The notes beneath the pieces were generated by a model that ran no database searches, was not told the DNA's origin, and saw only the letters and a list, made by a program, of their open reading frames with translations. Positions 5,822 to 57,472 of a stretch of 64,000 bases of DNA are shown piece after piece. The translations under genes were made by a program, and so were the position numbers. This DNA comes from Lutispora saccharofermentans (GTDB lineage: Bacteria; Bacillota; Clostridia; Lutisporales; Lutisporaceae), in the NCBI RefSeq assembly GCF_024363565.1, contig NZ_JAJEKE010000004.1, positions 186,001 through 250,000 of the forward strand. Direction: 5' to 3'. Each line of letters starts with the position of its first letter. Positions within the stretch are counted from its first letter, which is position 1.

Positions 5822-5840
5822 TTCCATAAGCTCAATAAAC

Positions 5841-5950
5841 AGAAATACTCCGATTTTATGCATCTAAACGAATTGTACGCGCAAGATGCATAAAACGAAA
5901 GGGTATTGCAGGAAACTGCAGTGCCTTCCAGTGCGAAAAGGAGTAATAAA
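5841..5950 (+). promoter_or_regulatory. Structured 5' leader, candidate unassigned riboswitch or attenuator aptamer
   Basis: The transcribed leader can fold into a closed multi-branch structure. A closing helix TACTCC (5846-5851) / GGAGTA (5940-5945) encloses a perfect 12-bp hairpin, TTTTATGCATCT (5854-5865) / AGATGCATAAAA (5884-5895). It also encloses a hairpin capped by a GAAA (GNRA) tetraloop at 5912-5915 with stem TTGCAG/CTGCAG. A strong intrinsic terminator follows within 15 bases, and then the ribosome site of a 1690-residue protein gene. Promoter, fold, terminator, gene is classical riboswitch or attenuator architecture. I could not match it to a riboswitch class I know, so the ligand is unknown. 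Confidence 0.5.
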
Positions 5951-5958
5951 CCGACTTT

Positions 5959-5993
5959 TTAAAACTTCTTTTTGCTATAAAAGAAGTTTTTTT
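5959..5993 (+). terminator. Intrinsic terminator in the leader of the redox cluster (conditional terminator candidate)
   Basis: A perfect 12-bp stem AAAACTTCTTTT (5961-5972) / AAAAGAAGTTTT (5979-5990) is followed by a T run to 5993. It lies about 60 bp upstream of the start codon at 6052, so transcription must pass it to reach the gene. Confidence 0.75.
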
Positions 5994-6051
5994 GTTGCTC
6001 ATTTCCATTGCGAGTAAACTGTACCAAAATTTTAAATAGGAGGAGAACATT

Positions 6052-9000
6052 ATGAGCTATTCAAGCACTAAGAAAACCTTGAAGGTATTGGCGCTCTTAA
6101 CGGCCTTTACCCTTATTTTTTCATCTCTTGGCCTTATAGCTCCGGATGTATCAGGAAGTTCTGTATACGCAGAAGCATGGACTCCTGAGACGGAGCAGCC
6201 TATCCTGGTGGTTACGGGCCAGGGCATAGGATTGACCGATGAAAAATCGTATACTCTAAGCGAACTCATGTCAATGCAGCATGTTACAAATCTTTACTCC
6301 ACAATAAACACCACTCCCACCAAGAGCATATATCTTGGGAAGGGAGTAAAAGTCGATGATCTCCTGAGCAAATCAAGCTTTACCAAAGACAAATATGATC
6401 TGTTCAAAATAGCTTTTGCAGCCAAGGATGGTTACAAGGTCACCTTCAACCCTTCTCATAAAGGAGATTCTACTACTTCCAAGGTATTGACCACCCCTTC
6501 CTACGGTATGGAAAGATATTATTTCCCAAAGCTGGGCAGCGGACAAGCCGATGGCAAAATCCCCGTGGATACCATACTAGCCTTCGGAAGAGCCGGCGAT
6601 AGGGGAAAACCTGAGGTAATTCCTCAAAGCAGTTCCTTAGAAGCTTTGACTGATAAGGATGCACCCCTCTTGATGGTAGGCCAGCAGCATGTAGAGGAAC
6701 AGAATAACCCCCTGTTTAATAAGACCATACAAAAAATACTTGTGGGTGATGAGCTTCCTGCTGTACTGAAAATAGGGAACAAGGACTATACAAGAGCTGA
6801 AATACTTCTCATGCCTAAAATAGCGGGCAATTGGACCTACACTAAAAAAACAGGCCCGATGGCGGACTACTGTGTGGGTGTACCCTTGGGCGAATTGCTG
6901 AAGGGTTATGATGATAAGGACAGAGTAGAATTTATATCTGCCGACGGCTATGCAAATGATCCCGTTACCGTAGGAGATATAAAAGATTCCTCCAAGCAGT
7001 ACATACTTGCCTATGAAGCAGGCACCGGCTCCGGTGACTCCAAAGCAGTCTGTGACACTGCAAAGGATAACCCGGCTATAGTCGGTTATTTCAGGATATA
7101 CAGCCAAAATGGCTCCTTAATAAAGCTGGTCAACGAGATCAAGGTCACTCCGTCCAGCGGAACAGACTATTCCAAGAGCTCTTACAAGCACATTACAAAC
7201 GGCGGAGTTGCCGGCGATGCACCTTACAATATAGATGCAATAACAGGAGCAACATTGACCTTTGAAGGTCCCGGCCTTGCGGCCAGCATACCTCTCTCCA
7301 TCAGAGAAATGGAGAACCAAAATGCAGGTGCCTTCCACGGAGATTATAAGGATACTCGAAGCGGGAAAGAGACAGTCCTTAAATATGAAGGAATCCGTCT
7401 TGAATACCTATTGAAGAATATGACCTCCGGCACAACCGGTATAAAGCTCACCGATTCCGCCTATAAGGTGCTCTTAAAAAACAGGGTGAGACAGACAATA
7501 GCAGAATTTACCTTAGAGCAAATTGCCCAGGCTGAAGCACAGGGCAAGCCCATAATCATAGCCTATGGAACCGCAAACCGGGACGGCTCCAATCCAAGGC
7601 CCTTTATCTATGATGCAGGAGCCGGTGCCGATGCGTCCTTGGGCAACGAAGATGGCTGTATAAAGCTTGTTTATGATAAATCAGCCTTCAGCTTTGATCC
7701 GAACCCCAACTATACCAAGTTCGGAAATATTGCCTACATCTATGTGGCAGAGAATGACTCCCCGGGCTATAAGCATGATAAAGCCCCTTACGACAAAGCA
7801 GAGAATTCTCAATACATAATAACCGTTACGGGAGATAAGGTCGGAAGAGAAGTAAATTATACAGTGAAGCAAATAGAAGATATGGTCAAGTACGAAGACG
7901 GCAAGCCCGCTGCCGGCGGCATGGGCTATAGAGCCGAATATAGCCTCTCCAACTCAACCTACTGGTATGTCAATGAATATGAAGGGGTTAAGCTGTGGGA
8001 GCTCCTGAAAAAATCCGGAGTCCCCGAAGCCATGGCCAAGGGCGAAGACTCCAAGACCGTAGTGCAATTTACCGCCACAGACGGCTATAAGGATTTTGAC
8101 AAATTTACTTTGGCTCAGATAGCAAACCCTGCTTTATTCGGATACTATGAAAAGAATCCCGCCGATTTGAATGACGGAAAATACGCTTCCAAGGATGAAG
8201 ATGATTTAAGATCCACCGGTTATCCCGTTTTGGTAGCCTATGGGGTCAACGGGTATCCATATGTCATAAAAAATACTCTGGACGGCTATAAGAGCGGTCT
8301 TGGCAATGACGGCGGACCCCTGCGCATCATATCCGGCAAAACAGAATACCATCATGCCAACGGCTCAAAGCAAGCCAAGCTGCTGGATAAGATAATCGTG
8401 GGCAATGAAGTCAATTACAGCACCCACAGCGGGAATCCGGACGAAAATTATAAATCTCTCGCTTCTCAAAAGATAGATGTAAAAGTGATAGGCATGGATG
8501 GAAGCACTCTCAAGAATCTGAGCTATACAATAGCAGATATAGAAAATATGATTTACGGAGCTGATATCTCCAATACTCAAAAAGTTAAGGCTAGAGTAAA
8601 GGATTTCTACGAGGTCAAAAAAGGCGATAAAGCTTACAGCGATTTGTATGAGGGTATAGATCTGAGCTATTTCCTGAAGGAGAAGGCCCAGATACCCGGG
8701 ATCAAAGGCACAGTGATCTTTACAGGCTCTGAGGGAGAATCCTTGACCGTATCCCTGGATGATATATTCTATAACAGCAAAAAATCCATCCTGGCTTTTG
8801 CTAAAAACGGCGCCCCCATGACATCAGATAAGGATTCTAAGGGTTATGTCAGCTCCTATACGGACGGAACAGGCGAGAAGATCAATGTGAAGAACGACGG
8901 CGGGCCTCTTATGATGATCATGCCCCAAGAAAAATCCATAAATGCGGTTGCTTCAATTGCAATAAATCTTCAGCCCGATAAATATGCCCACATAGAATCA

Positions 9001-11124
9001 CCTTATAACGAACTGAAAAACAGCACCATAACCATTGAAGGCCCGGGAACTAAGCTCAGTGCACCTAAGACCTTCAAGGTTTCGGACATAGAAGACAAGC
9101 AGACCCTCGCGATCACAGCCGATTATAACGTGAAGAAGACTGCTTCGGAACAGCAGATCCGCTACAGAGGGATAGATCTATACAGTTTCTTACGCTCTGC
9201 GGATGTAGGACTCCAATCCAATGCCAGCGAAGCAGTATTTACCTCTGCAGACGGAAAAAGCCTGACCTTCTCATTGTCGGAGGTCATGAAAACTGATTAT
9301 CTCAACGGTGCAACCAAAGCAGCGGATTTGAAGATGATATTGGCCTATGGCTCAAGCCCAATAACCCACAGCAATCTTGAAAACGGCAAGCCGCTTGTAC
9401 CGGATAAGGACTCTAAGGGTTATGACCCCGGCTATAACAATTCGGGAGGCCCTCTGTGCCTAATAGTAGGCCAGAAGTCCGCAGAAGACATCAATTCCTC
9501 CAACATACTAAAAAATGTTGTGGAGATAACCGTCAAAGCTTCTGAAGCCACCAGCTGGAAGCATGACATGAGCCCTGCCTACAGCCAGTATCTGGACAAA
9601 AGCTATCTGGAGCTTACCGGAACTGCTTTGGCAAACCAGAAGAAATATACTCTCCGTGAGCTTGAAGCCATGGATGACATAATACTGAGAGATTCCTATA
9701 CCTATATCGGGGAGCATCAGCATGAAGGCCTTGACCTGTGGAAGCTCATCACCCAAAAGGCAGAGCTCAAGCCCGGAGCAGACATCACCTCTGTGAAGGT
9801 TATCGCATCAGATGGATTCTCAAGAGATGTTCTGTCCGTATTCGGAAGGGATGCTCTGGAAAAAGGAATCGCAGACGGTCTGGACAGAAAGATAATCATG
9901 CTTTCCTATGCTGCAGACGGGAATCCGCTGGTTACGGATACCAACAGCGACGGATACACCAGCGGCAACGAAGGCGGGCCCATAAGGATGATCGCTCACT
10001 TGAACCAGGGAGCATGCCTGAAGAATGTAGTCAAGGTAGTAGTAGACGGAAACATCGGCAGTGTCCCCTCATCAGAGCCTGCCGAAAAAGCATTTACCTC
10101 CTATCTGGGCGGGGATAAGGGCGGATTGCCTGTAGCAGGAGTGAGAGCCGTAGCCCCCGATGATAAAGGCGGCCTTTGGATAGGCACCTATGGAGGCGGA
10201 GCGGCTTATCTGGATGCAGCAGGCAAGATAAATGCCATGACCTTGCCGGGAAGCTATGTAAACGATATAGCCATAGATAAAGCAGGCGGCGTATGGTTTA
10301 CCCTCGGAGGCATGGAGCCTCAAAATCAAAAGGGGGCCGCTTATCTCAAAGACGGAAAAGTGATCCATTATACAAAGGAAAGCACCAAGGGCAATCTAAT
10401 ATCGGATTTTGTGCAGAGCGTGGAAATAGATAGCAGCGGCAAGATATGGTTCGCCACCGCTTCAGGCCTGGTCTGCTTTGACCCGGCCAACAACAGCTGG
10501 AAGAACTGGACCAAGGAAAGCGGGCTGCCCGCCCAATCAGTCGGCACACTGACGGCGGATACCAAAGGCGGCATCTGGATAGGATGCTACCCTGATACAA
10601 CAGATGCGGAAAAGAATATATACAGCGGCGGATATGCCTATATGACCAAGGAAGGAGCTATAAAGGCATATACAGACACCAAAAATACTAAATTTGCCGA
10701 CCAATGGGTAAGAAGCATTTCCATAGACCCCCAGGGCGGAGCATGGGTAGTAAAGTCCGGTTCTTACTCTACCATGGAAAATGCAGGAGGCAGGATTGAT
10801 TATGTAAACCCTAAGGGAGAGATTGAAGCTCAATATACAGGACAGGAACTGCTCCCCGGCGAATTGAAGGATAATGCGGAAATACGAACTATTGCTGTGG
10901 ATTACAAAGGCAGTTTGTGGATCGGAACCAGCTCCAAAGGAATATTCTTCTGCAAGAAGCCAAAAACAGTGAGCAAGAAATTCAGCAGAGCCAACGGAGA
11001 TTGGCAGGACATCAGCAGCTTAGACTCGATATTCTCCATAGCCGTAACAGAAGATACGCTGTGGGCAGGAAGCAATGGCGGCGTAGTCCATGCTTTGACG
11101 GACAATATATTCATGAAAAAATGA
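6052..11124 (+). CDS. Exported 1690-residue protein with about seven sulfite-oxidase-like repeats and a C-terminal beta-propeller
   Basis: A signal peptide (basic start, hydrophobic core, probable cleavage after VYA near residue 40) marks it as exported. The body consists of about seven repeats of a fold resembling the oxidoreductase molybdopterin-binding (sulfite oxidase-like) domain. They start near residues 45, 237, 395, 588, 806, 990 and 1184. Each has the pattern TVTG / YTLxELE / YEGVxLWxLL / DGY / xxAYG / GGPLRxI / LLDKIIVG. The cysteine that ligates molybdenum in true members is not conserved across repeats, so they are probably not molybdoenzymes. Residues 395-401 read DAITGAT, matching the ApbE flavinylation motif DxxTGAT, with T401 the possible acceptor. 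Residues about 1345-1690 carry propeller repeats of the GGLWIGT / GKIWFAT / GSLWIGT type, as in two-component regulator propellers. No cell-wall anchor is seen. AGGAGG ribosome site. It is followed by three related redox genes. Confidence 0.8.
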   Translation: MSYSSTKKTLKVLALLTAFTLIFSSLGLIAPDVSGSSVYAEAWTPETEQPILVVTGQGIGLTDEKSYTLSELMSMQHVTNLYSTINTTPTKSIYLGKGVKVDDLLSKSSFTKDKYDLFKIAFAAKDGYKVTFNPSHKGDSTTSKVLTTPSYGMERYYFPKLGSGQADGKIPVDTILAFGRAGDRGKPEVIPQSSSLEALTDKDAPLLMVGQQHVEEQNNPLFNKTIQKILVGDELPAVLKIGNKDYTRAEILLMPKIAGNWTYTKKTGPMADYCVGVPLGELLKGYDDKDRVEFISADGYANDPVTVGDIKDSSKQYILAYEAGTGSGDSKAVCDTAKDNPAIVGYFRIYSQNGSLIKLVNEIKVTPSSGTDYSKSSYKHITNGGVAGDAPYNIDAITGATLTFEGPGLAASIPLSIREMENQNAGAFHGDYKDTRSGKETVLKYEGIRLEYLLKNMTSGTTGIKLTDSAYKVLLKNRVRQTIAEFTLEQIAQAEAQGKPIIIAYGTANRDGSNPRPFIYDAGAGADASLGNEDGCIKLVYDKSAFSFDPNPNYTKFGNIAYIYVAENDSPGYKHDKAPYDKAENSQYIITVTGDKVGREVNYTVKQIEDMVKYEDGKPAAGGMGYRAEYSLSNSTYWYVNEYEGVKLWELLKKSGVPEAMAKGEDSKTVVQFTATDGYKDFDKFTLAQIANPALFGYYEKNPADLNDGKYASKDEDDLRSTGYPVLVAYGVNGYPYVIKNTLDGYKSGLGNDGGPLRIISGKTEYHHANGSKQAKLLDKIIVGNEVNYSTHSGNPDENYKSLASQKIDVKVIGMDGSTLKNLSYTIADIENMIYGADISNTQKVKARVKDFYEVKKGDKAYSDLYEGIDLSYFLKEKAQIPGIKGTVIFTGSEGESLTVSLDDIFYNSKKSILAFAKNGAPMTSDKDSKGYVSSYTDGTGEKINVKNDGGPLMMIMPQEKSINAVASIAINLQPDKYAHIESPYNELKNSTITIEGPGTKLSAPKTFKVSDIEDKQTLAITADYNVKKTASEQQIRYRGIDLYSFLRSADVGLQSNASEAVFTSADGKSLTFSLSEVMKTDYLNGATKAADLKMILAYGSSPITHSNLENGKPLVPDKDSKGYDPGYNNSGGPLCLIVGQKSAEDINSSNILKNVVEITVKASEATSWKHDMSPAYSQYLDKSYLELTGTALANQKKYTLRELEAMDDIILRDSYTYIGEHQHEGLDLWKLITQKAELKPGADITSVKVIASDGFSRDVLSVFGRDALEKGIADGLDRKIIMLSYAADGNPLVTDTNSDGYTSGNEGGPIRMIAHLNQGACLKNVVKVVVDGNIGSVPSSEPAEKAFTSYLGGDKGGLPVAGVRAVAPDDKGGLWIGTYGGGAAYLDAAGKINAMTLPGSYVNDIAIDKAGGVWFTLGGMEPQNQKGAAYLKDGKVIHYTKESTKGNLISDFVQSVEIDSSGKIWFATASGLVCFDPANNSWKNWTKESGLPAQSVGTLTADTKGGIWIGCYPDTTDAEKNIYSGGYAYMTKEGAIKAYTDTKNTKFADQWVRSISIDPQGGAWVVKSGSYSTMENAGGRIDYVNPKGEIEAQYTGQELLPGELKDNAEIRTIAVDYKGSLWIGTSSKGIFFCKKPKTVSKKFSRANGDWQDISSLDSIFSIAVTEDTLWAGSNGGVVHALTDNIFMKK

Positions 11125-11150
11125 TTTTACTGCAATCACTCTACTTTCAT

Positions 11151-11279
11151 CTGTTGTCCTGACTGATAGCAACTGCAGAGCTCCGAAGCTAAGACTTTGT
11201 AAGCTTGCATAGGGTTGCGTCAAAACTAACAAACTCTAAGCTCCTTCACTATGCACTCTTATATCAGCCAGGACAACAG
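11151..11279. repeat. Palindromic intergenic element (copy A), about 130 bp
   Basis: An 18-base outer stem, 11151-11168 against 11262-11279, matches at 17 of 18 positions. The interior (about 11181-11250) is nearly identical to 26869-26938, near the PatB gene, including the pairing ends AAGCTAAGA and CTCTAAGCTC. The same left arm recurs at 26842-26860. This is a non-coding mobile palindrome (MITE/REP-like) rather than a gene. The rest of the 311-bp gap up to 11435 holds only the ribosome site of the next gene and short repeats of AGTGA. Confidence 0.75.
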
Positions 11280-11435
11280 AGTTTATGCAGTGGAATCAAG
11301 TTTAATGTTATCAAACTTTCAGTGATTTTTTGTGAAGTTTCAGTGACTTTTCGTGTTTGACATTTCCCCTGACCCAGGAGGAATACATTCACCCTGAGTT
11401 CTGAGATCTGAGCTCTATACCTAAGGAGGTGAACT

Positions 11436-12158
11436 ATGAAAGACAGGAATAATGTATTTTCAATTTTATTGATCCTTTTGTTATCCTTATCTCTATTGAC
11501 GGCATGCCAGGCAAAAATCCCTCCTGCTTCGGCTGCAGGCTTGGCAGAAACCGCCGACGAAACGAAAGCCAATGAGCAGCCCGGGGAAGTTCAAAAGGAA
11601 ACCGAAGAAGCAGCCCCCCAGGAGCAGCCTCCGGAAGATGTCCTTAAGGCAACACCTGCAGAAGCTCCGGCAGAGCCGCAAAAAAAGGAATCTTCTAAAT
11701 CGGATGATAAAGCCTGCTTTCAGATAGAAGGTACAGGCGTAGAAAAATCCATTCTGTTTTCTCTGGATGAAATAAAAGCCATGAAGGACGCTTATTTTGA
11801 GGATGATTTCTTTTCATTGAACAGCTACGGCACCAAGGAATATTTTCACTTTAAAGGCGTGAAGGTAAAAGCAGTTTTAGATAAGGCCGGCTTGAATAAA
11901 AATGCCAAAACTATAAGCTTTATCGCTTTCGACGGCTACAAGCAGGAGCTGACCCTGGAGCAAGCCTTAAAAGAGGATTATATCGACGAGCAAGATCCGG
12001 ATAAAAAATATCCTGTCATCATCGCCTGGCATGAAAACGGCAGCGATTATGATCCGCAGAAAGGAGCTCCCTTCCGCCTTGTCATAGGGCAGAAGGAACC
12101 GGGAGATGTGAATAAACCTCAATGGGTGCAAAATATAGCCAAAATAGTAGTGGATTAG
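11436..12158 (+). CDS. Lipoprotein with one sulfite-oxidase-like domain
   Basis: The 240-residue protein starts with a lipoprotein signal whose lipobox is LTAC (C24), so it is expected to be anchored to the outer face of the membrane. Residues about 25-90 are a Glu/Pro/Ala-rich flexible linker. Residues about 95-240 are a single repeat of the same fold as in the upstream 1690-residue protein. They show FSLDEIKAMK, HFKGVKVKAVLDKAG, FDGYKQELTLEQAL, APFRLVIGQ and NIAKIVVD at the expected places. A very strong ribosome site (AAGGAGGTGA) precedes ATG 11436. The next gene starts 11 bp after its stop, so they form an operon. Role inferred: extracytoplasmic redox partner or scaffold. Confidence 0.75.
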   Translation: MKDRNNVFSILLILLLSLSLLTACQAKIPPASAAGLAETADETKANEQPGEVQKETEEAAPQEQPPEDVLKATPAEAPAEPQKKESSKSDDKACFQIEGTGVEKSILFSLDEIKAMKDAYFEDDFFSLNSYGTKEYFHFKGVKVKAVLDKAGLNKNAKTISFIAFDGYKQELTLEQALKEDYIDEQDPDKKYPVIIAWHENGSDYDPQKGAPFRLVIGQKEPGDVNKPQWVQNIAKIVVD

Positions 12159-12169
12159 GAGTGCGGAAT

Positions 12170-13753
12170 ATGAAGAAAAGAAATATTTACATGATCATAC
12201 TCCTCGTGTTTCTTATTGTAGTATCCTCTGCACTATGGTTCATGAATGATACTCGAAAAGAAAAGGTGATGATAAAGGATATCCTGCCTCAGGCCGGAGC
12301 TATAAAGCTCATCGACGGGGCGTCCGGCGATCCCGTTATACAGAAGGATTTCCCGGCCATAGAAAAGATCTACAGCATTGATGATAAGCCGTCAGCTTTT
12401 ATAGCCTCCGGCACAGGCTATGAAGGCACTATAAAGGCTTTGATAGTCATGGATAATGAACAAAGGAAAATCGCAGGGATAAGGATTCTTGAACAAGGGG
12501 ACACCCCTCTTTATGCCGACGGCATAAAGGAAAGCTGGTTTACCGACAGATTCGAGGGTTTGGGCTTACTTGAATATCTTAACAGGGTGGTGTTGGACCC
12601 CCAAAAACCCACGGATATAGTCCAGGTAACGGGAGCCAGCGTATCCAGCCAGGCTGTGCTGAACAATGTGAATTCTGCCATAGGAGCCTGGAATTATCTT
12701 GAGACCAATGTGAAAAAAGATCCGGTGGAAAATTTCATATCGCAGGAAATGTGGGAAAAGGACGAAAACAGCTTTATGATCTCATGGCCTGATGATAATT
12801 CCGTGAGGATCACCACTGAAGATTTGGCTCAATACCCCCAGGTCACCACGGAAACCATACTTCAAAAAACTACAGGGGTAAAGATCGATACCAGGGCTTC
12901 AGGACCGCTTCTGAAGGATATACTGAAGAAGAAGGGCATAGATATTGATTCCTACGAGGCTGTCGGCATCACAGGCCGGGATAATTATTATGCTATGATA
13001 AGCAAGGATATAATTCAAAGCAGAGATATAATTCTCGCCACCATGCTTGACGATAAAGAAATACCCAGGGAAGAAAAGCCTGTAAGGATAGTTGTTCCTG
13101 ATGAGATGGGGGTTTACTGGGTTAAGATGGTGAACAAGATCGAATTATATACTCACATCTCGCCCAAGGATATACAAAGAGTTTACATATTTGATGCATT
13201 GGTGAGAAACATAGAGCCCTATTACTATGAATATTACGGCAGCAAGGACAAGTCCTATCTGGTAGGCAAAATACTATCCAAATTTGACTATGTGGATCAA
13301 AATGGATTCTTCACTATGGCAGGCTCCGACGGACTGATAAAAAATGAAACCATCAGCATGGTCAGGGACAGGTATTATATCAAAACTGAAGGGCAGAATG
13401 CTCCCATGAACATCGGCCCCGCCTTCAAGCTGGGCATGAATGTAAAAGAAATGAGCCACTTCTCCACTACCACAGATGCCGTCATATTCCCTGGGGTAAT
13501 GATGAAGATCATCGACGAAGAGACCATCCCCCAGGGAAAGGCGATGAGGCTCAGAGCAGCTCTCGAGGAAGCAGGCATGGTCTTGGAGAATGGGGATAAG
13601 CTAGTTTTGACAGATATGAACGGGAAAGAGTACCGGATATCATCAAGCGAAGCAAAAAACGCATATTTGCTGCCATCAGGCAATAAAGCGGATGTAATAG
13701 CAGGTGATATGACCATAAAGGATATGCTCAGGATAAGCAAAATTCAGAATTAG
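12170..13753 (+). CDS. Membrane-anchored FMN_bind protein with two sulfite-oxidase-like domains
   Basis: A 527-residue protein. One N-terminal membrane segment (about residues 6-24) is an uncleaved anchor. Residues about 75-180 look like an FMN_bind domain (RnfG/NqrC family), with TGAS at 154-157 followed by VSS. S157 would be the covalent FMN acceptor, although the usual aspartate three residues before the motif is replaced by valine. Residues about 190-340 and 360-527 are two domains with the fold of the repeats in the 1690-residue protein (for example EKPVRIVVPDEMGVYWVKMV). An in-frame GTG at 12122 lies inside the upstream gene. ATG 12170 has an AGGAG site 8 bases upstream and is preferred. 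The next gene begins 1 bp after the stop, indicating translational coupling. Confidence 0.75.
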   Translation: MKKRNIYMIILLVFLIVVSSALWFMNDTRKEKVMIKDILPQAGAIKLIDGASGDPVIQKDFPAIEKIYSIDDKPSAFIASGTGYEGTIKALIVMDNEQRKIAGIRILEQGDTPLYADGIKESWFTDRFEGLGLLEYLNRVVLDPQKPTDIVQVTGASVSSQAVLNNVNSAIGAWNYLETNVKKDPVENFISQEMWEKDENSFMISWPDDNSVRITTEDLAQYPQVTTETILQKTTGVKIDTRASGPLLKDILKKKGIDIDSYEAVGITGRDNYYAMISKDIIQSRDIILATMLDDKEIPREEKPVRIVVPDEMGVYWVKMVNKIELYTHISPKDIQRVYIFDALVRNIEPYYYEYYGSKDKSYLVGKILSKFDYVDQNGFFTMAGSDGLIKNETISMVRDRYYIKTEGQNAPMNIGPAFKLGMNVKEMSHFSTTTDAVIFPGVMMKIIDEETIPQGKAMRLRAALEEAGMVLENGDKLVLTDMNGKEYRISSSEAKNAYLLPSGNKADVIAGDMTIKDMLRISKIQN

Positions 13754-13754
13754 G

Positions 13755-14960
13755 ATGAGATACGCTATGAAGAAAATTAGAACAAGATATGGCCGGGGAC
13801 TTGTGCAGGCTTCCATATTCATCGCGCTTATAATCATTGTTCTCCTTTACGATCTCTATACCGACGGGAAGCTGAGCTTTAAGCTTTTGGGAATAGGAGA
13901 TTTAAATCCATATGGAGGCTGGAGTGCATTGCATCAATTTGCAACGGACAGCAGCTACACCTTTGAAGGGATCAGCAAAAGCGCAGCATTGACCGCAGCT
14001 TTGCTGACCATAGCCGTTATAGGCGGAAGATTCTTTTGCGGGTGGCTCTGCCCCATAGGAGCCATGCAGGACTTTTCTGCCTGGCTCGGAAGCAAAATGA
14101 AGATTCCAAGATTCGACACCAAAGTGAAGAAGGCTTTCAATCCTTTGTTCTTTAAATATCCCATCCTTTTATCCATTTTGCTTATTTCCATACTCGGATA
14201 TGGGGCGATCATAGCAGGTTTATCTCCCTGGAGAGCGCTTCTGAGCCTGCTCAGGCTTCCTTATAACTGGGCTGAAATGAAAACGGGATTTGCCATATTG
14301 ATGGCTGTCTTCCTGGCTTCAATGTTTCTCTCCCGATTCTTCTGCAGGTATTTATGCCCCCTGGGAGCAGCCCAGGCCTTGTTTGGTTCGCTGAGCCTGT
14401 TCTCCTTAAAACATGGAAGCGGCTGCAGCCGATGCGGCATATGCCTGGATGGATGCCCTGTGGGCATAAGGCTTTCTGCCGGCAGCGACACCATATCTCC
14501 GGAATGCATAAGATGCATGGATTGTATAGATGGCTGCAAGTCTCAAGGTATTCAGGGAATCCATCATGCCTTAGGAAAAAAAAGAATATCTTTAAAGGCT
14601 TATGCATCGCTGATGCTGACGCTTTTCATATTTATATGGCTCGGTGTGCCCCATTTGTTTGCCGGAAGCTTACATGGAGCGGATATCCGCCTCGGCAGCT
14701 TAAGGGACGGCACTTATCAGGGGGAAGCCAGGGGCTTCGCCGGTAAAATCCTAACCGAGATAACCATCACAGAGGGCAGGATCGCAGAAATAAAAATTAT
14801 TGAGCATCACGAGAGCAAGGGCTGGTATGAGGAAGTATTCATGATGCTTCCAAAAGAAATCATCAAAAAACAAAGCCTTCAGGTAGACAGCATAAGCGGA
14901 GCCACAAAAACCAGCAAGGGACTCATAAGAAGCGTGGCAAATGCCGTAAATAAAGCTTAG
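13755..14960 (+). CDS. NosR/NapH-like 4Fe-4S membrane protein with C-terminal FMN_bind (flavinylated) domain
   Basis: A 401-residue polytopic protein with about five to six membrane segments (first about residues 17-36). It has the paired NosR/NapH loops CGWLCP (C95, C99) and CRYLCP (C197, C201). Two ferredoxin-type clusters follow: C224, C227, C230, C234 and C251, C254, C257, C261. After another membrane span near 285-305 comes an extracytoplasmic FMN_bind domain (about 315-401) with the canonical motif DSISGAT (378-384), making T384 the probable phosphodiester FMN site added by ApbE. Known family members carry electrons across the membrane to flavinylated or other extracytoplasmic partners. 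Here the partners are presumably the three preceding gene products. ATG 13767 is an alternative start. No apbE is in the window. Confidence 0.85.
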   Translation: MRYAMKKIRTRYGRGLVQASIFIALIIIVLLYDLYTDGKLSFKLLGIGDLNPYGGWSALHQFATDSSYTFEGISKSAALTAALLTIAVIGGRFFCGWLCPIGAMQDFSAWLGSKMKIPRFDTKVKKAFNPLFFKYPILLSILLISILGYGAIIAGLSPWRALLSLLRLPYNWAEMKTGFAILMAVFLASMFLSRFFCRYLCPLGAAQALFGSLSLFSLKHGSGCSRCGICLDGCPVGIRLSAGSDTISPECIRCMDCIDGCKSQGIQGIHHALGKKRISLKAYASLMLTLFIFIWLGVPHLFAGSLHGADIRLGSLRDGTYQGEARGFAGKILTEITITEGRIAEIKIIEHHESKGWYEEVFMMLPKEIIKKQSLQVDSISGATKTSKGLIRSVANAVNKA

Positions 14961-14980
14961 GGCAAATGCCCCAAGCTTTA
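14951..14980. terminator. Bidirectional terminator between the redox cluster and iadA
   Basis: TAAAGCTTAGGGC (14951-14963) and GCCCCAAGCTTTA (14968-14980) pair at 12 of 13 positions. The stem contains the stop codons of both convergent genes. Confidence 0.65.
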
Positions 14981-16144
14981 TTCAAAGGTTCCTTTCACTA
15001 TTGCTCTCCCGCTTCTTACCATTATGCGTCCCTTGCATATTACGGTATCCACTTCCAGACTTTCTTTCTTCAAAATAACTATGTCCGCATCATACCCGGC
15101 TTTTAGCCGCCCTTTGCTCCTGAGCCTGAGTATTTCTGCAGGATTGGAGGTGGCAATCCGTATAGCCTTTTCTATTTCAAGCTTCTCATCAAAATGCAGC
15201 TCTCTTATACATTCAAGGATGGAGGATGATTTGCCGACTTTGAGTTCCTTCAGCTTGCCCGCTTCATCGAATACGGGAAGGCTTCCCTGTCCGTCTGAGG
15301 ACACTGTTATTTGATTCAGATGTACTCCTTCCTCAAGGAGTATTCTTATGGCTTTACTGCTTGATACCTCTCCATCCTCTATAAACTTAGGGACGGTGCT
15401 TGTGGTCAAATCGATATATCCGCCTTTCAGCCCGAATTCAACAGCATCCTTGAATATCCATTTATTCCTGTTCATATGTGTGGGAAGGAATTGGGTTATA
15501 GGTATGCTTGAGTTCTCCAGCAATCTGTACAGTATGTCCAGGGGCCTCCTGTCATCGCCGAGATGCAGGTTTATTATCCCCGCTTTTCCTGACAGCATCC
15601 CGCCTATCCTTGCTTCTGAGGCTATCCTTGACAGCTCCTCTACAGTAGGAACCGATGATCTATGGTCCGATACGGCTATTTCACCCGTGCCGATTATTTT
15701 TTCTATGAGTATCAAATCATCTGTTATGCTGCCGGTCACTGTCCGCACGGGGATCTGGTATGACCCCGTATAGGCATAAGCTGTCACACCCTCTTCATTC
15801 AATGCATAGGTCTTGGCCAGGAGATTGGACATGGTCCTTGTGGTCCCATCTGTTCCAAGGACCCCTACCACCGTGGTCACGCCTGCCATCGTGATATCCG
15901 TCAGCGTGATCTCCGGTGTCCTGGTCTTATATCCTCCTTCACCTCCTCCCCCGCAGATATGGACATGGCTGTCTATAAGTCCGGGAACCACATAACAGTC
16001 TTTGGCATCTATTGTTTCACATTCAATTCCCGATAGCTTAATATTTTCATCTATTGCCTCTATATTGCCGCCCGCAGTCAATACATCCTTTTGCCCTTCA
16101 TGATCGGGGCTTAGTATAACGCCGTTTTTAATCAATAATACCAC
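14978..16144 (-). CDS. iadA: Isoaspartyl dipeptidase (beta-aspartyl peptidase), zinc amidohydrolase
   Basis: Hydrolyses beta-aspartyl dipeptides, including beta-Asp-Arg from cyanophycin. The 388-residue length matches IadA. The amidohydrolase metal site is visible: HVH at residues 60-62, the HLGDD segment, HMNRN, and SSDGQGS near residue 285, which supplies the catalytic aspartate. AVSDHRSS corresponds to the conserved IadA stretch. The start is GTG at 16144, preceded by AGGAGGG. It lies 82 bp downstream of the sigma-54 activator on the same strand and is the last gene of the locus before a bidirectional terminator. The neighbouring cyanophycinase and oligopeptide transporter support a role in beta-aspartyl dipeptide catabolism. 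Confidence 0.9.
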   Translation of the reverse strand: MVLLIKNGVILSPDHEGQKDVLTAGGNIEAIDENIKLSGIECETIDAKDCYVVPGLIDSHVHICGGGGEGGYKTRTPEITLTDITMAGVTTVVGVLGTDGTTRTMSNLLAKTYALNEEGVTAYAYTGSYQIPVRTVTGSITDDLILIEKIIGTGEIAVSDHRSSVPTVEELSRIASEARIGGMLSGKAGIINLHLGDDRRPLDILYRLLENSSIPITQFLPTHMNRNKWIFKDAVEFGLKGGYIDLTTSTVPKFIEDGEVSSSKAIRILLEEGVHLNQITVSSDGQGSLPVFDEAGKLKELKVGKSSSILECIRELHFDEKLEIEKAIRIATSNPAEILRLRSKGRLKAGYDADIVILKKESLEVDTVICKGRIMVRSGRAIVKGTFE

Positions 16145-16226
16145 GATAACCCTCCTGATATAGTCAAACTATTTCTTGGTGACTTCCCTGCTTCCTTTTA
16201 TGAGTCTCCGGCCTTCTTGCATGTAT

Positions 16227-18254
16227 TTATATCCGTTGATGCAAGCATCTTAAGCCTTTTTCTGTAAGAATAGTCCCTTGCTTACCCCGCCTTATGCGGA
16301 TGAAACCCTTTTTCTCAAGCTTTTCCAGCCTTGTTCTTATTTGATATTGGGTTATGTTATGGCCTGCTTCATTGAGCCTTTCGCTTATCTTTTCCCTCCC
16401 TGCTGCAAAGCCTTCATTCTGCAGCGCTTCTATTGCTTCTAAAATAAGCCTGGTCTCATCGTCTATATGGTCATATCCTGCATCATCACTTGCAACCATA
16501 TAGCTCAGATCCTCCACAAAAAACCTCCTGTCGGGAAGGTCAGCCAGCGTCAAGATATTGCTCGTACGAACCGCAAGCATATATTTTATCGTGCTTTCAA
16601 GCTCCCTTATATTGCCCAGCCACTTGTATTTTTTGAACTCATTTAGCACGCTTTGAGATACCCTCACATCTTCAGTGACTTCAGTCTTTATAAAGTATTT
16701 CACAAGCTCCTCTATATCGCTCAAGCGATTCCTCAGGGGCGGTAAATTGATATAGCCTATTTTCAACCTGTAATACAGATCCGATCTGAATTGTTTTTCT
16801 AAAACCATCTTGTAAAGATTTTTATTGGTAGCTGCAATTATCCTCACATCCACTCCCTTTATGACAGTGCCCCCTAAGGGCATGACCTCTTTCTCCTGCA
16901 ATACTCTCAGCAGCTTTGTCTGAACCTTTGGAGAAATATCGCCTATTTCATCCAGAAATATGGTTCCTCCCTCCGCCAATTCAAACAGCCCTATCTTTCC
17001 TCCCTTTTTTGCCCCGGTAAACGCTCCTTCCTCATATCCGAACAACTCGCTTTCTATCAATTCATCCGGCAGAGCGCTGAAGTTTATTGCAAGGAAAGGC
17101 CCGTATTTCCTTTTTGAGTTATTGTGTATGGAGCTTGCAAAAAGCTCTTTGCCCGTACCGCTTTCACCTTCGATGAGAACCGTAAGCTCCGATTTTGACA
17201 ATTTGAGAGCGACGGCCTTTGTATCTTTAATAGGACCACTGCTCCCTATTATGTCGTCAAAATTATACTTGGCCAGATGCCCCCTGAGCAGAAGGTCCTG
17301 ATAGTAGCTCTTCTTCATGCTGTTCTTTTCATCCCTGTTTGTAGTGACCACGATATTAGAGCTGTGAGGAATCCTGAACTTGGACATTTTTACCTGATTG
17401 CCCATTATACTCAGCGACTTATTCTCATATACATCAGTGCCAAGAAAATATTGCAGCATCACCTTGTCAACAATATTCTTCAGATTCTTGTTCTCAATGC
17501 TCTTCTTTTCCAATGAAAATACATTTCCCATTTCCTCATTGGCGTATTTTATGTATCCCTGCTCATCATAAACCAGAATGCCGTTCACCAGATTATCCAC
17601 AATATTGTTGAGGTAGCCGTTCAATGTCTGCACGCTTCTGTTGACGGCGGAAATGCTTTTGGACACATTTATTATCTTCTGCATATATCTCTTTGTAATA
17701 AATCTTGTATCCCGGTTGTCAAGATTAAGCTTATCCATGATGCTGTACAAGGTATTTATATCTATGATGCGGGGCCCCATGTTGATTATCCTTGTAACGC
17801 AGCTTGGTACTTTATCAGGCTCGCCGGGTGTGATAGCGGTATCCAGCTTCTTATAGTTGGGGATCCCCGGATAATAGGGGTAATATTTTATATGGTTCAG
17901 GCCAAGCTCTATCAAGTCATTTATAGCACTCTCCGTTGTTCCCTTTTCATCATTGACCAATAAAACCTCTTCATTCACCGGAAGATCCGCTACCTGATCA
18001 ATAAAGTCAAAATTTATGCTTCTTTCACAGATTATGATATCTTCACAATCATATTGGATGTTCATCTGATCCAGCTCTTCTTTCATTCCGGCGCTTGAAA
18101 CTATCAATAATTCGCATTTCAGCACCGGATCTATGCCATCTTCGCTGGCATAAGCCCCTATGGTCATCGTATCAGGTATAAACTCTCTGAGCTGCCTGTA
18201 TAAAAATTGCTTTGTATTTTTAGACCCTGCTATCAGGATAATCCTATTTTGCAT
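16227..18254 (-). CDS. Sigma-54-dependent transcriptional activator (sensor, PAS, AAA+, winged-helix)
   Basis: A bacterial enhancer-binding protein of about 675 residues. The N-terminal ~200 residues are an unassigned sensor region, followed by a PAS-like segment (about 205-270, LVNGILVYDEQGYIKYANEEM). The AAA+ domain (about 333-570) has Walker A GESGTGKE, the sigma-54 contact loop GAFTGA (near residue 412), Walker B and FRSDLYYRL. The C-terminus is unusual: instead of a Fis-type helix-turn-helix it has a winged-helix-like region (about 600-675, ISERLNEAGHNITQYQIRTRLEKLEKKGFIRIRRGKQG). An upstream ATG at 18281 is in frame, but ATG 18254 has AAAAGGTGA at the right distance. The adjoining peptide/cyanophycinase operon has a matching sigma-54 promoter at 25447-25462, so that operon is the likely target. 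Confidence 0.88.
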   Translation of the reverse strand: MQNRIILIAGSKNTKQFLYRQLREFIPDTMTIGAYASEDGIDPVLKCELLIVSSAGMKEELDQMNIQYDCEDIIICERSINFDFIDQVADLPVNEEVLLVNDEKGTTESAINDLIELGLNHIKYYPYYPGIPNYKKLDTAITPGEPDKVPSCVTRIINMGPRIIDINTLYSIMDKLNLDNRDTRFITKRYMQKIINVSKSISAVNRSVQTLNGYLNNIVDNLVNGILVYDEQGYIKYANEEMGNVFSLEKKSIENKNLKNIVDKVMLQYFLGTDVYENKSLSIMGNQVKMSKFRIPHSSNIVVTTNRDEKNSMKKSYYQDLLLRGHLAKYNFDDIIGSSGPIKDTKAVALKLSKSELTVLIEGESGTGKELFASSIHNNSKRKYGPFLAINFSALPDELIESELFGYEEGAFTGAKKGGKIGLFELAEGGTIFLDEIGDISPKVQTKLLRVLQEKEVMPLGGTVIKGVDVRIIAATNKNLYKMVLEKQFRSDLYYRLKIGYINLPPLRNRLSDIEELVKYFIKTEVTEDVRVSQSVLNEFKKYKWLGNIRELESTIKYMLAVRTSNILTLADLPDRRFFVEDLSYMVASDDAGYDHIDDETRLILEAIEALQNEGFAAGREKISERLNEAGHNITQYQIRTRLEKLEKKGFIRIRRGKQGTILTEKGLRCLHQRI

Positions 18255-18280
18255 ACTATCACCTTTTACATTCTTATTCA

Positions 18281-18309
18281 TTGTCAGCCGCTTTGCATCA
18301 TGCTATAAT
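18281..18309 (+). promoter_or_regulatory. Sigma-A promoter of the small membrane protein gene
   Basis: TTGTCA (18281-18286), a 17-base spacer and TATAAT (18304-18309) lie 30 bp upstream of the start codon at 18339. The promoter is divergent from the sigma-54 activator gene. Confidence 0.7.
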
Positions 18310-26833: not shown

Positions 26834-27101
26834 ATTTAACTCGTTGTGCTGGCTGATAACAAGTATAAAGCTTCGAGGCTAAGACTTTGTAAGCTTGTAT
26901 AGGGCTGCGTCAAAACTAACAAACTCTAAGCCTCTTCACATTGAACGAGACTTCATTCAGTGGGGTTTCAACTCCACTGAATGTTAGTCGAGTCCATGCT
27001 GGACTTAGCCGTCCTTAGTATTAGCCTCCTATAGAGGCGGGTTCTTAGGGCGGGTTAGTTCAGTGAAATACTCTTTTATCATCTACCATAACGAGTTAAA
27101 T
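26834..27101. repeat. Composite palindromic element (copy B) interrupted by a cloverleaf repeat
   Basis: Outer arms ATTTAACTCGTT (26834-26845) and AACGAGTTAAAT (27090-27101) are perfect inverted repeats. The left half to about 26941 matches copy A at 11151-11250, and a decayed right arm lies at 27068-27093. Between them sits a cloverleaf repeat (26943-27065) absent from copy A. The right end touches the stop codon of the EamA gene. This element fills the gap between PatB and EamA. Confidence 0.7.
26943..27065 (-). repeat. Cloverleaf-like intergenic repeat, copy 1
   Basis: It begins GAACGAGACTTCATTCAGTG and ends GGCGGGTTAGTTCAGTG, as in the copies at 28451, 33008 and 63420 (this copy and 63420 are in one orientation, the other two reversed). 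It has a CATTCAGTGGGG/CCACTGAATG hairpin, an AGTCCA/TGGACT hairpin and a G+C-rich arm. It is non-coding. Confidence 0.8.
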
Positions 27102-30844: not shown

Positions 30845-32614
30845 TTATCCGATGGTTGCTTTGATCCTCCTTACTCCTGAGGATGAGCTTTCTTCCTTCT
30901 GAATCTTAAACCTCTTGAGCTCTCCCGTATTCATAGCATGGGGGCCTCCGCATATCTCCTTTGAATAGCCGGGAATGGTATATACCTTTACAGCTTCTCC
31001 ATACTTGCTGTCAAAAATACCGATGGCACCCTCCGCCTTGGCTTCTTCTACAGTCCGCTCTTTGCATTCAACATCAATTTCTTTTAATATTGCCTCATTG
31101 ACTATTCTTTCGACTTCTTCCAATTCTTCCTTCGTCATCTTACGATGAAAAGAAAAATCAAACCTCAGCCTTTCTGCATTGATATTACTGCCTCTTTGGT
31201 AAACGCTGCCCCCTAATACAGCTCTGAGAGCTCCGTTCAGCAGGTGTGTAGCTGTATGCAGTTTTGTCGTCTGTTCACTATTATCTGCCAGGCCTCCTTT
31301 AAATTTTTCACCTGCACCTATCCGGGATTTTTCCTGATGCTCTCTATATTTTTGTTCAAACTCCGATATGTCTACATTTATTTTTCTTTCTGAAGCAAGC
31401 TCAACAGTAAATTCAACCGGGAACCCGAATGTATCATATAACTTAAATGCTAACTCGCCGCTTAGATTGCTTCCCTCATCCAGATTGGAAAAATACCTCT
31501 CTGCCATTTTCAGACCGCTGTCCAAAGTCTTTGAGAACAAATTGTATTCCTTTTCAAGCTGTTCTAAAATATAGGCTTTATTTCTTACCAATTCAGCGTA
31601 AATTCCTCCATATTCTTCAATGACTGCTTCCGCGATATTGCATAGGATATTTTCGTTTATGCCCAGTTTTTTTATCATACGAATGGCGCGCCTTATCAAT
31701 CTTCTCAGGATATACCCCTGCTCAGAATTTGACGGTGCGATCGCTTTCGGATCTCCTAAAATAAAAGCCGCAGCTCTCATATGCTCGCTGATTATCCTGA
31801 ACATTCTTGTATTGCCTTCATCGCAATCCAAATCGGTCAGGCATTCAATTTTTTTCATGATAGGCCGAAACAATTCCGTCTCATATACATTTTGAAATCC
31901 ATTCATGATCGTAAGCACGCGTTCCAGACCCATTCCTGTGTCAACATTTTTCTGTGAAAGCTCTGAATATCCTCCAGCCTCATTTTTGTTGTATTCCATG
32001 AAAACATTGTTCCATATCTCCACATATTTTCCGCATTTGCATGCCGGACCGCAATTATCCCCGCATTTCGCTTTCCCCATATCATAAAAGATTTCTGTAT
32101 CAGGTCCGCATGGCCCTGTTCTCCCGGCAGGTCCCCACCAGTTCTCTTCTCTTCCATAGAAAAAAATCTGCTCTTCCTTCAGCCCATTTTTCATCCATAG
32201 CTCTGCTGCTTCCGTATCTCTCGGAACTGCTTCGTCCCCCTCAAATACTGTCACTGCAAGCTTCTCAACAGGTATTCTTAAATATTCAGTAAGGAATTCA
32301 TAACTCATCACGATAGATTCTTCCTTGAAATAGTCCCCAAGAGACCAGTTCCCGAGCATTTCAAAAAATGTCACATGAGTATCGTCTCCAACATCATCTA
32401 TATCGCCTGTCCTGACGCATTTCTGAATATCAACCAGCCTATTCCCCTGAGGGTGTTTTTCTCCCAATAGATAAGGAACTAAAGGATGCATCCCTGCCGT
32501 CGTGAACAATACGCTTGGGTCATTATCAGGAAATAAAGAAGCTGAGCCTATCTCTTTATGGCCCCTTTCTTCAAAAAATTCCACATACATTCTTCTCAAT
32601 TCATTTGCTTTCAT
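30845..32614 (-). CDS. Short alanyl-tRNA synthetase (catalytic plus editing domains, no C-Ala domain)
   Basis: About 589 residues, against about 870 for full-length AlaRS. The class II catalytic core is present: [14 protein letters not shown] (motif 1 region), [24 protein letters not shown] (motif 2 region) and GMGLERV (motif 3). A tRNA-recognition middle region follows, then the editing domain with its zinc ligands HTATH (near residue 450) and CGGPH (near residue 552). It ends with [10 protein letters not shown], where AlaRS normally continues into the DHHA1/C-Ala domain, which is absent. A longer start at 32665 would run through the leader terminator. ATG 32614 has AAAGGGGA six bases upstream. 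An alanine T-box leader precedes it, so expression should respond to uncharged tRNA-Ala. Confidence 0.85.
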
Positions 32615-32640
32615 AGCCATTCCCCTTTCTTTTTTCAATA

Positions 32641-32935
32641 AAAAAGCCCCAAGCTGATATTTCATTCAGCTTAGGGCGAACTATACGGTCCGTGTTACCA
32701 CCTAAATTCAGAGATCATCTCTGCACTCTGCCGGTACGAGGCCATTTATACTATCATAACCCGATACCGTGTTCCTTTTAACGGCGGAAGCTCCGACGAA
32801 GCCTACTAAGATCACTCTTTTCGGTTCATAGTTCCGAGACTGCTTCAATATAACCTTTGTGAAGATTCGCACCTTCCATCTTCTCTCTGCGACTCCGGCC
32901 AATATCTACTCTCTCTCTTCATAACCTTTGCATTT
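32641..32935 (-). promoter_or_regulatory. T-box leader with alanine (GCA) specifier and intrinsic terminator
   Basis: On the minus strand the stem I region carries AGTAGATAT opposite GAAGCAGTCTC. The specifier codon GCA (alanine) lies at 32843-32841, flanked by GAGA/TCTC pairing. The T-box itself, TTAGGTGGTAACACGG, lies at 32691-32706. The terminator is CCCTAAGCTGA / TCAGCTTGGGG followed by a T run (32641-32678). An uncharged tRNA-Ala would favour the antiterminator and expression of the short AlaRS gene. Confidence 0.88.
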
Positions 32936-48777: not shown

Positions 48778-50043
48778 CTAAATTCTACAATAAGATGCTT
48801 CTATTTGTTCTTTTAACTTCTGTCTTACATCTTCTACGTCAGGATTCTTAATGTCCACGCAAATAATATGAAGATGCATTTCTCCATAGCTGTCTTTGAT
48901 TATCACAGTCTTGCTTTCAATAGGAAGTTTACAAAACAGCGGATAAATCAATGCTACGGTCTTAACGCCATAAGCTTTTCCATAAGCAAACACTTGATAA
49001 ATATCATCTCTGCTAATGTTATTAAACATCCCATTCCCATAACCAGGGTTTTTGTATTTAGCATCTACAACAAGTATCAATCGCTCCCCCTTATAAACCA
49101 ATATGTCAGGTTTTATAGTCAGAATATTTCTTTTATCCTCTGTCTTTGCAAAATGTAAAGTAGATTCGTGTTTAGCCCCATAACCCTCCATCCCATCTAT
49201 TAGCTTAAACAAGTAATATTCATATAAATCATTAACCGGAATCAAAAAAGAAAAAACAGTTTCATCTCCAATGTAATTTTCAGGTTGCAGGTTTTGATAA
49301 AACATTCTTGCCATATCAAAAACAGGTTTGAAATCCATATTTAGACGTGAAAATTTAACTGATTCTAGCAGAGGCATGGATAGCTCAATCTCCCTTGCAT
49401 CATCCAAAAACATTAAAGCTCTTTTAAGATTCTTCTTATTGTCCGCACTTTGTGTGCATTCTAACAGTTTGACGACCACTGTTTTTACAGCATTATTTAT
49501 AAGATTATCGTGCTCAAAGCTCTGATACGATATATAGTGCAAATCTTTCCTTAAAAAATTATTTTTTATAGTTTTAACAAAGTCAATCCTTCCTTTGACA
49601 AATTGGCTATTCCCCTCAATTTCAATATACTCTCTATTCATTCTTTTTGAATAAGTGTGAAAAACATGATCTGCAAATATAGAAATAAAAATTTCTAATA
49701 ATTCTGCTTCCATAAGGCTATTATTTTGAGCATTGGGTAAATGAAGCACCTTATTAAATTCCGATACTTTCAATAGATTAAATAGAACCCCCATAGATTC
49801 ACGAATTTCTTTTTCGCTGTCTAAATCTATATCATCGTATATTTTGGGTAATATTTGTAATCGTGTTTTGCCTTTTGCAATAAATCCAACATAATGCATT
49901 ATTTGTAATATCCCATCATAGTCTAGTCGTATATACTGATTTCCTATAATAGAACGAAAGGTCAGTATATCATTAATTTGAGTCTGAGATAATGTAACTT
50001 TTTGCTTTCTATCTTCAAATACTGTTATAACCTTATGAGACAT
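48778..50043 (-). CDS. mcrC: McrC-like nuclease subunit of an McrBC restriction system
   Basis: A 421-residue McrC family protein, the nuclease partner of the McrB motor, expected to cut modified DNA after GTP-driven translocation. The N-terminal wrapping domain precedes a PD-(D/E)xK nuclease. Its catalytic residues are visible in LTIKPDILVYKGERLILVVDAKYKN (D in KPD, D and K in DAK, about residues 330-355). An in-frame ATG at 50061 overlaps mcrB by 17 bases, but ATG 50043 is two bases after the mcrB stop and has AGCAGGT at suitable distance. Base composition of the cluster looks more A+T-rich than that of its neighbours, consistent with horizontal transfer. Confidence 0.85.
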   Translation of the reverse strand: MSHKVITVFEDRKQKVTLSQTQINDILTFRSIIGNQYIRLDYDGILQIMHYVGFIAKGKTRLQILPKIYDDIDLDSEKEIRESMGVLFNLLKVSEFNKVLHLPNAQNNSLMEAELLEIFISIFADHVFHTYSKRMNREYIEIEGNSQFVKGRIDFVKTIKNNFLRKDLHYISYQSFEHDNLINNAVKTVVVKLLECTQSADNKKNLKRALMFLDDAREIELSMPLLESVKFSRLNMDFKPVFDMARMFYQNLQPENYIGDETVFSFLIPVNDLYEYYLFKLIDGMEGYGAKHESTLHFAKTEDKRNILTIKPDILVYKGERLILVVDAKYKNPGYGNGMFNNISRDDIYQVFAYGKAYGVKTVALIYPLFCKLPIESKTVIIKDSYGEMHLHIICVDIKNPDVEDVRQKLKEQIEASYCRI

Positions 50044-50044
50044 A

Positions 50045-53697: not shown

Positions 53698-53852
53698 ATC
53701 TACCACCTGCTTTAGATATATTTTATAACGCTCATCATATATTTTATCATATTGTACAGCCAGATCATGGCTCTTGCGATACTGTTAAATTTTATTTTAC
53801 CTGACTTACAGCTATTTTCGTATAGCATAAAAATTTATGCTTTCTTATACAA

Positions 53853-57350: not shown

Positions 57351-57399
57351 CCAAAGTCCGGGATTTAACATAATAAAAAACCGGCCTCCCGGACTTTGG
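57351..57399 (-). repeat. 13-bp inverted repeat straddling the ZTP riboswitch terminator
   Basis: TCCCGGACTTTGG (57387-57399) and CCAAAGTCCGGGA (57351-57363) are perfectly complementary. The stem would form only after read-through, across the U run. Confidence 0.6.
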
Positions 57400-57472
57400 T
57401 GCCCAGGCGGTCGGCATATCAAGATTCACACTCCCTATGGTCTATTCCATTTCCGCCAGTAATGTGATCCTC
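57375..57472 (-). promoter_or_regulatory. ZTP (pfl-motif) riboswitch with overlapping terminator
   Basis: On the minus strand the leader has GGATCACATTACTGGCGGAA, then CCATAGGGAGTG, then after a short linker GCCGACCGCCTGGGCACC. These are the two conserved halves of the ZTP/ZMP-binding aptamer. ACCGCCT of the second half can instead pair with AGGCCGGT (57380-57387), which is followed by TTTTTT, making a terminator. Ligand binding should therefore keep transcription on. ZTP accumulates when 10-formyl-THF is short, and PflB supplies formate for its synthesis. Confidence 0.92.

Follow-up and report, generated by a model that had tools for sequence, protein, structure and literature searches.

Several described systems each resemble part of the locus analyzed here. 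The PruR proteins of Agrobacterium, Vibrio and Klebsiella (PDB 7KOM, 7KP2, 7KOS and 7RKB) are exported, have a SUOX-type fold without the molybdenum-ligand cysteine and bind pterins (PMC13259868); each is a single domain of ~170 aa that signals to the c-di-GMP enzyme DcpA. NapH-like flavinylated systems, which combine an Fe-S membrane protein (PF12801) with a domain for covalent flavin mononucleotide (FMN), are widespread and modular (Meheust et al. 2021, PMC8238504). Riboswitches for the molybdenum and tungsten cofactors (Moco/Tuco) are known to control cofactor synthesis, metal transport and enzymes, and the RNAs of this class that lack P3 accompany tungsten-cofactor organisms in 17 of 19 cases (Regulski et al. 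2008, PMC2408646). Energy-coupling factor (ECF) transporters of micronutrients are encoded by S, A, A' and T genes, together with a salvage-type kinase. In NEAT/Isd haem capture, surface-anchored repeat-domain binders pass their ligand to a lipoprotein and on to an importer. Because the Mo/W cofactor itself is labile, its production is usually regarded as confined to the cell interior. Here we analyze four genes (P0001 to P0004) of Lutispora saccharofermentans (genome G000), contained in a 64,000-nt stretch of contig NZ_JAJEKE010000004.1 (the window, to which coordinates without a prefix refer). As judged from their leader sequence, these genes sit in a Moco/Tuco riboswitch regulon. We read them as one half, the extracytoplasmic one, of an acquisition system for a molybdopterin-type cofactor (probably that of tungsten) or its pterin, a reading for and against which we find the balance about even.

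The leader of P0001 contains an RF01055 aptamer that ends 93 nt before the start codon (Table 1). Its P3 positions are deleted, and the aligned relatives are also P3-less. It is followed by a terminator hairpin at 5961-5990, whose 5' arm can pair alternatively with the 3' end of the aptamer; this alternative duplex has an energy of -15.6 kcal/mol, compared with -9.0 +/- 2.0 for shuffled sequences, and a similar pairing is found in most relatives. Because terminator and antiterminator overlap, we infer read-through at cofactor scarcity, and the leader is thus predicted to be an OFF switch that lets transcription through when Tuco or Moco is scarce. Nearly every related locus examined, more than 20 in all, has RF01055 ahead of its first cluster gene; all of these aptamers are P3-less and nearly all have a terminator. 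The same riboswitch precedes the ECF operon described below in two relatives (G004 and G005). The aptamer type and the association with tungsten-enzyme organisms are those of the known regulon (PMC2408646), but the targets here are SO (sulfite oxidase)-repeat, FMN and ECF genes, for which control by this riboswitch is not described in the literature searched.

Table 1. Features of the four-gene locus and its leader (window positions; repeat i-E values are from the second-round profile).
Feature	Position	Strand	Evidence
Moco/Tuco riboswitch aptamer RF01055, P3-less type	5836..5959	+	cmscan 68.0 bits (gathering 36), E 3e-14, full-length
Intrinsic terminator of the riboswitch; 5' arm 5965-5975 alternatively pairs with aptamer 3' end 5933-5943	5961..5995	+	Hairpin -10.1 kcal/mol, T-rich tail
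P0001, exported 1690-aa protein, seven SO-like (PruR-like) repeats and C-terminal propeller	6052..11124	+	ORF, Pfam, HMM, fold model
P0001 SO-like repeat 1, aa 58-231	6223..6744	+	i-E 3.7e-13
P0001 SO-like repeat 2, aa 245-334	6784..7053	+	i-E 3.5e-15
P0001 candidate flavinylation motif DAITGAT, aa 395-401 (T401), linker between repeats 2 and 3	7234..7254	+	Kept in relatives
P0001 SO-like repeat 3, aa 402-507	7255..7572	+	i-E 3.4e-05
P0001 SO-like repeat 4, aa 582-783, most conserved	7795..8400	+	Pfam Oxidored_molyb 582-678; i-E 3.1e-24
P0001 SO-like repeat 5, aa 845-964	8584..8943	+	i-E 4.4e-18
P0001 SO-like repeat 6, aa 991-1162	9022..9537	+	i-E 1e-26
P0001 SO-like repeat 7, aa 1182-1331	9595..10044	+	i-E 2.1e-28
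P0001 Reg_prop beta-propeller, about aa 1350-1685; SLH anchor repeats instead in most within-family relatives	10099..11106	+	Reg_prop 7.8e-20
P0002, 240-aa lipoprotein, single SO-like domain; sole invariant Cys is that of the lipobox	11436..12158	+	ORF, Pfam, relatives
P0003, membrane-anchored, RnfG-like FMN_bind (aa 99-187) and SO-like domain (aa 212-342)	12170..13753	+	Pfam, fold model; start M17 from relatives
P0004, 401-aa NapH-like Fe-S membrane protein, C-terminal FMN_bind domain with DSISGAT (T384)	13755..14960	+	Fer4_5 1.3e-19, FMN_bind 1.5e-13, napH subfamily 3.8e-27

The initial annotation had proposed four tightly packed genes encoding an extracytoplasmic redox system of SO-like repeats, flavinylation motifs and a NosR/NapH-like protein. 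All four ORFs are open (6052-11124, 11436-12158, 12122-13753 and 13755-14960), the third encoding 543 aa in full, with relatives beginning at its M17 (12170). Their order and positions stand; the tight packing does not hold between P0001 and P0002, where a 311-bp gap contains a 131-bp palindromic insertion. By Pfam, Oxidored_molyb is shared by P0001, P0002 and P0003, and both P0003 and P0004 have FMN_bind; P0004 further matches the NapH-type Fer4_5, and P0001 the Reg_prop propeller. An export signal of P0001 was recognised by eye. The single SO-like domain of the lipoprotein P0002 and the NapH-like nature of P0004, with its C-terminal FMN_bind domain, were confirmed, and the coupling of a covalent-FMN-type Fe-S protein to exported Moco-free SO-like proteins is supported. 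For P0003, to which two SO-like domains had been assigned, FMN_bind and one SO-like domain are clear; the second, C-terminal copy is only partial (HHalign probability 75-85%). A scan against PHROGs gave a single match, of P0004 to an entry of unknown function. The insertion between P0001 and P0002 (11150-11280) is MITE-like, with 19-bp inverted ends; a 97-bp copy of 87% identity lies at 26843-26939, and the insertion is absent from this site in the sister genome G002, where the gap is 57 bp.

About seven repeats had been suggested for P0001. A first-round repeat HMM, built from other proteins alone (the 173-aa, 160-aa, lipoprotein and SLH forms), found exactly seven, and a second-round profile that added the repeats of P0001 relatives recovered these seven again, with no match in P0001 read in reverse. 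The propeller is an exchangeable module, since C-terminal SLH repeats stand in its place in four of the five full-length P0001 relatives within the family; among the large proteins of the Tissierellales, SLH and propeller both occur, mixed. The propeller was for these reasons ruled out as a key part of the system. One 2361-aa P0001 relative (L070:1-7084, minus strand, genome G061) has SLH, propeller and SO-like domains together and a Moco/Tuco riboswitch of its own ahead of it.

Structure prediction of the repeats, as the initial annotation had advised, gave an SO-like fold with PruR as the nearest solved relative. For the model of P0001 (aa 41-1200, pLDDT 76), PruR was the top Foldseek match (TMt 0.69, probability 1.00); superantigen-like and cytokine-receptor matches were of low rank and low probability and were set aside as noise. 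In the model of P0003 (pLDDT 83), the FMN part matches the FMN subunits of Rnf/Nqr, and the SO part matches PruR first (7kom, TMt 0.74) and sulfite oxidases next. PruR is also the nearest PDB relative by sequence (E 0.0028) of the 173-aa SO family encoded in related clusters. As in PruR, the cysteine that binds molybdenum is not conserved: relatives of P0002 share no cysteine except that of the lipobox, and Asn129 and Ser130 are, as judged by eye, invariant in the region of the former cysteine, a position that Trp occupies in PruR. The sole invariant cysteine of the 173-aa family lies near the C-terminus, in FSxRxCK. This likeness in the models points to capture of a cofactor rather than to respiration. 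The system differs from PruR in its seven tandem repeats, in its lipoprotein, SLH and FMN-linked forms, and in its setting among ECF genes and the Moco/Tuco regulon. No DcpA-type partner gene was recognised in the clusters by Pfam scans, which covered part of the genes of the related clusters.

Some 20 genomes, spread over several families, keep the four genes as a set, so that the proposal of the initial annotation passes the conservation check posed there. The set is found in sister genomes G003, G004, G005, G011, G013 and G016, some cut at contig ends, and is partly visible in G002. A scan of genome contigs recovered 18 loci with the same gene order, including those of [Clostridium] ultunense, Geosporobacter ferrireducens, Sedimentibacter and Gudongella. 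Genomes of the Tissierellales type continue, in the same direction, with a 160-aa SO lipoprotein, an ECF S component (PF09819, also matching Pfam ABC_cobalt), an exported type I phosphodiesterase/nucleotide-pyrophosphatase (NPP)-like protein in which the usual family motifs are seen by eye, the 173-aa SO protein, ECF A, A' and T, MobB and an APH-like kinase. The window genome has this block, without the 160-aa protein, beyond the edge of the window, ~10.6 kb upstream of P0001 (G000:C29, about 176.1-181.5 kb); G003, G005 and G013 have it directly next to the four genes. All four ECF genes (S, A, A' and T) are present in G000 and in relatives. In G000, in G005 and in each of the six named relatives checked, no MobB other than that of the cluster scores above the cut-off. 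G010 carries two, each within the cluster, and no MobB is present in G001 or G007, which have no cluster. The module thus resembles the ECF transporters of micronutrients in gene content, and it differs from them in a predicted pterin- or Moco-type cargo, in its surface capture proteins and in its redox branch. Given the regulon and this ECF module, what stands of the redox system first proposed is its FMN/Fe-S and Moco-free SO-like proteins, not their working as a stand-alone relay.

The likely users of an imported cofactor are aldehyde ferredoxin oxidoreductases (AOR). For co-occurrence, 391 evenly sampled members of the class were counted, with tests that ignore phylogeny; 19 genomes, from six families, have a clear orthologue of the S component. 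AOR is present in 18 of these and in 33 of the 372 others (Fisher 1e-16), the sole exception, G016, having an AOR fragment at a contig end. The association remains among genomes with MoaC (15 of 16 with the S component against 30 of 69 without, p 2e-4) and within the family (8/8 against 6/14, counting the G016 fragment; p 0.009). Two weak matches to the S component, in G050 and G130, were left out of the count, as most of the module and AOR are missing there. In G061 the block adjoins moaA, moaC, moeA, a tungstate-transporter-like set and AOR, and G190 has an AOR gene at a distance of 8 kb from the S component. MoaA, MoaC and MoeA were not found in the incomplete assemblies of four AOR-positive cluster genomes (G190, G250, G400 and G402), which hints at dependence on scavenging there.

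The initial annotation had named flavinylation motifs and had made the proposal depend on apbE. One apbE gene is present in the genome (G000:C17:56459-57298, 315 bits), on another contig and next to a pyridine-nucleotide oxidoreductase gene. T384 of P0004 stands within a canonical DSISGAT. The corresponding motif of P0003 is VQVTGAS in the family of the window genome and VQVTGAT or similar outside it, and its flavinylation is uncertain because the usual Asp at -3 is missing. In P0001, D-x-[IL]-[ST]-[GS]-A-T is kept in every relative covering the site, so the motif itself stands, but its place is a linker, of the sort that connects plain repeats elsewhere, and not an FMN_bind domain; such a domain was rejected here, the FMN_bind match being weak (E 0.019). 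The DAITGAT of P0001 is possibly an ApbE target outside an FMN_bind domain. P0004 is like the described NapH-like proteins in its architecture, whereas its FMN domain is C-terminal, its partner is not a known oxidoreductase and the cluster adds pterin-binder-like proteins and an importer (PMC8238504). No known oxidoreductase partner was found in the window cluster, which has only SO-like domains without a Mo ligand.

In the reading as cofactor acquisition, the riboswitch match, the gene linkage, the predicted folds and the co-occurrence with AOR are the parts that are shown; the single MobB of most cluster genomes tested and the missing moa and moe genes of four genomes also count in its favour. 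It takes the form of a salvage route because a scarcity signal, the folds of pterin binders, an NPP-like enzyme, an ECF importer, a kinase and MobB come together. When Tuco or Moco is scarce, the leader would let transcription through, and the seven repeats of P0001 at the surface and the lipoprotein P0002 would bind pterin through their Moco-free PruR-like folds. P0004 would pass electrons from quinol or a cytosolic donor through its Fe-S centres to FMN on T384, and the FMN domain of P0003, perhaps with FMN on T401 of P0001, would hand them to the bound cofactor. Reduction of the pterin, the dithiolene or the metal could then bring about release or hand-over. The exported NPP-like lipoprotein would trim dinucleotide forms, the ECF transporter would import the pterin, and the kinase and MobB would rebuild a usable form inside the cell for aldehyde oxidoreductases and related enzymes. 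The likeness to NEAT/Isd is one of logic only; fold, cargo and transporter class are unrelated.

Several observations weigh against this reading. We infer the cargo, the flavinylation and the purpose of the electrons; the cargo is the weakest link, followed by the purpose of the electrons. The pocket of PruR is thought to be too short for whole Moco (PMC13259868). In the window genome, no riboswitch was found ahead of the ECF operon, even at a relaxed threshold. YkoE, the known member of the PF09819 family, handles a thiamine precursor. NapH is missing from the cluster of G010 and from those of family f22, in which the ECF block, DUF364 and FecCD/FecE/binding protein accompany FMN_bind and SO lipoproteins; the electron supply is therefore not obligatory. 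The assemblies from which moa and moe genes are missing are incomplete, and G255 has AOR with neither moa genes nor the module. MoaC is present in 16 of the 19 module-bearing sample genomes, so uptake is not essential there, and salvage cannot be argued from gene absence alone. An argument from strict auxotrophy was dropped on these grounds. As a separate observation, DUF364/DUF4213, a FecCD transporter and a TiaS-like protein adjoin the ECF block in five f22 loci (L071-L074 and L083).

The alternative that survives best, although we think it unlikely, is that the cargo is a metal (tungstate, molybdate or a chelate), bound by the surface domains, reduced from W/Mo(VI) by the flavins and imported by the ECF or the adjacent FecCD transporter. 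The P3-less riboswitch and the AOR link do point to tungsten (PMC2408646), the S component matches ABC_cobalt, and the f22 clusters add FecCD/FecE/binding protein and DUF364, annotated in Pfam as putative heavy-metal chelation. However, a separate tungstate-transporter-like system lies next door in G005 and G061, an oxyanion needs no NPP-like enzyme, kinase or MobB, and the repeats resemble pterin binders. Somewhat less likely again is a NapH-type flavinylated chain to an extracellular acceptor, in respiration or extracellular electron transfer, with the SO-like repeats as scaffold or reductase. The wide, modular occurrence of such systems (PMC8238504) agrees with this, as do the presence of the cluster in Geosporobacter ferrireducens and the fumarate-reductase-like FMN_bind proteins after the cluster in L060 and L065. 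It leaves unexplained the Moco/Tuco riboswitch control, the linkage to ECF, MobB, NPP and kinase genes, and the clusters that keep SO/FMN proteins without NapH. The fumarate-reductase-like flavoproteins lie at the cluster end, at L060:18652-20541 and L065:19331-21217, the latter alone being checked with Pfam.

We consider it improbable that a shortage of Tuco turns on, through the riboswitch, a flavin-based redox chain to stand in for the tungsten enzymes. Riboswitches can control cofactor-independent substitutes, and the predicted OFF switch would suit a backup pathway, but acquisition is a better fit for a cluster that holds an ECF importer, MobB, a pyrophosphatase and a kinase, and for the riboswitches ahead of that operon in G004 and G005. 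A role of the ECF part in providing the flavin with which ApbE modifies the NapH and FMN proteins, the SO domains having a separate role, is very improbable: the NPP-like enzyme could split FAD, and a Listeria ECF transporter traffics flavin to ApbE (PMC9973259), but the riboswitch is of the Moco/Tuco class and not an FMN riboswitch, apbE is on another contig, and MobB and the AOR association would remain unexplained.

The components of the acquisition system are of known kinds; the literature searched does not describe them in combination, and neither Moco uptake, pterin transport by an ECF system nor GEGP motif proteins have an earlier description there. A stronger claim, which we hold as a tentative one and somewhat doubt, is that this is the first bacterial uptake system for a molybdopterin-type (W/Mo) cofactor, in which wall-anchored strings of Moco-free pterin binders of the SO fold, reduced by covalent flavins, supply an ECF importer and the cofactor itself switches the whole; some hosts may then live on scavenged cofactor that they do not make. 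If true, riboswitch-controlled capture and import at the surface would make cofactor sharing in anaerobic communities directly testable (C. ultunense, Sedimentibacter and users of tungsten enzymes), and would explain what Moco-free repeats of the SO fold do, together with one branch of the NapH/FMN_bind clusters, of which thousands are orphans.

Other features of the window lie on the minus strand. A beta-aspartyl-peptidase gene and an adjoining sigma-54 activator resembling PrdR (14978-18281) are convergent with the four genes. A T-box leader at 32669-32931 (110.5 bits) precedes a 606-aa ORF (30845-32665), and a ZMP/ZTP riboswitch (RF01750, 61.5 bits) is found at 57394-57473. A 2228-aa SLH-anchored protein with aBig_2 and InlB-type repeats is encoded at 36914-43600, and a McrBC-type restriction pair at 48778-52300 is followed by an ADP-ribosylglycohydrolase/DUF6508 protein at 52348-53706.

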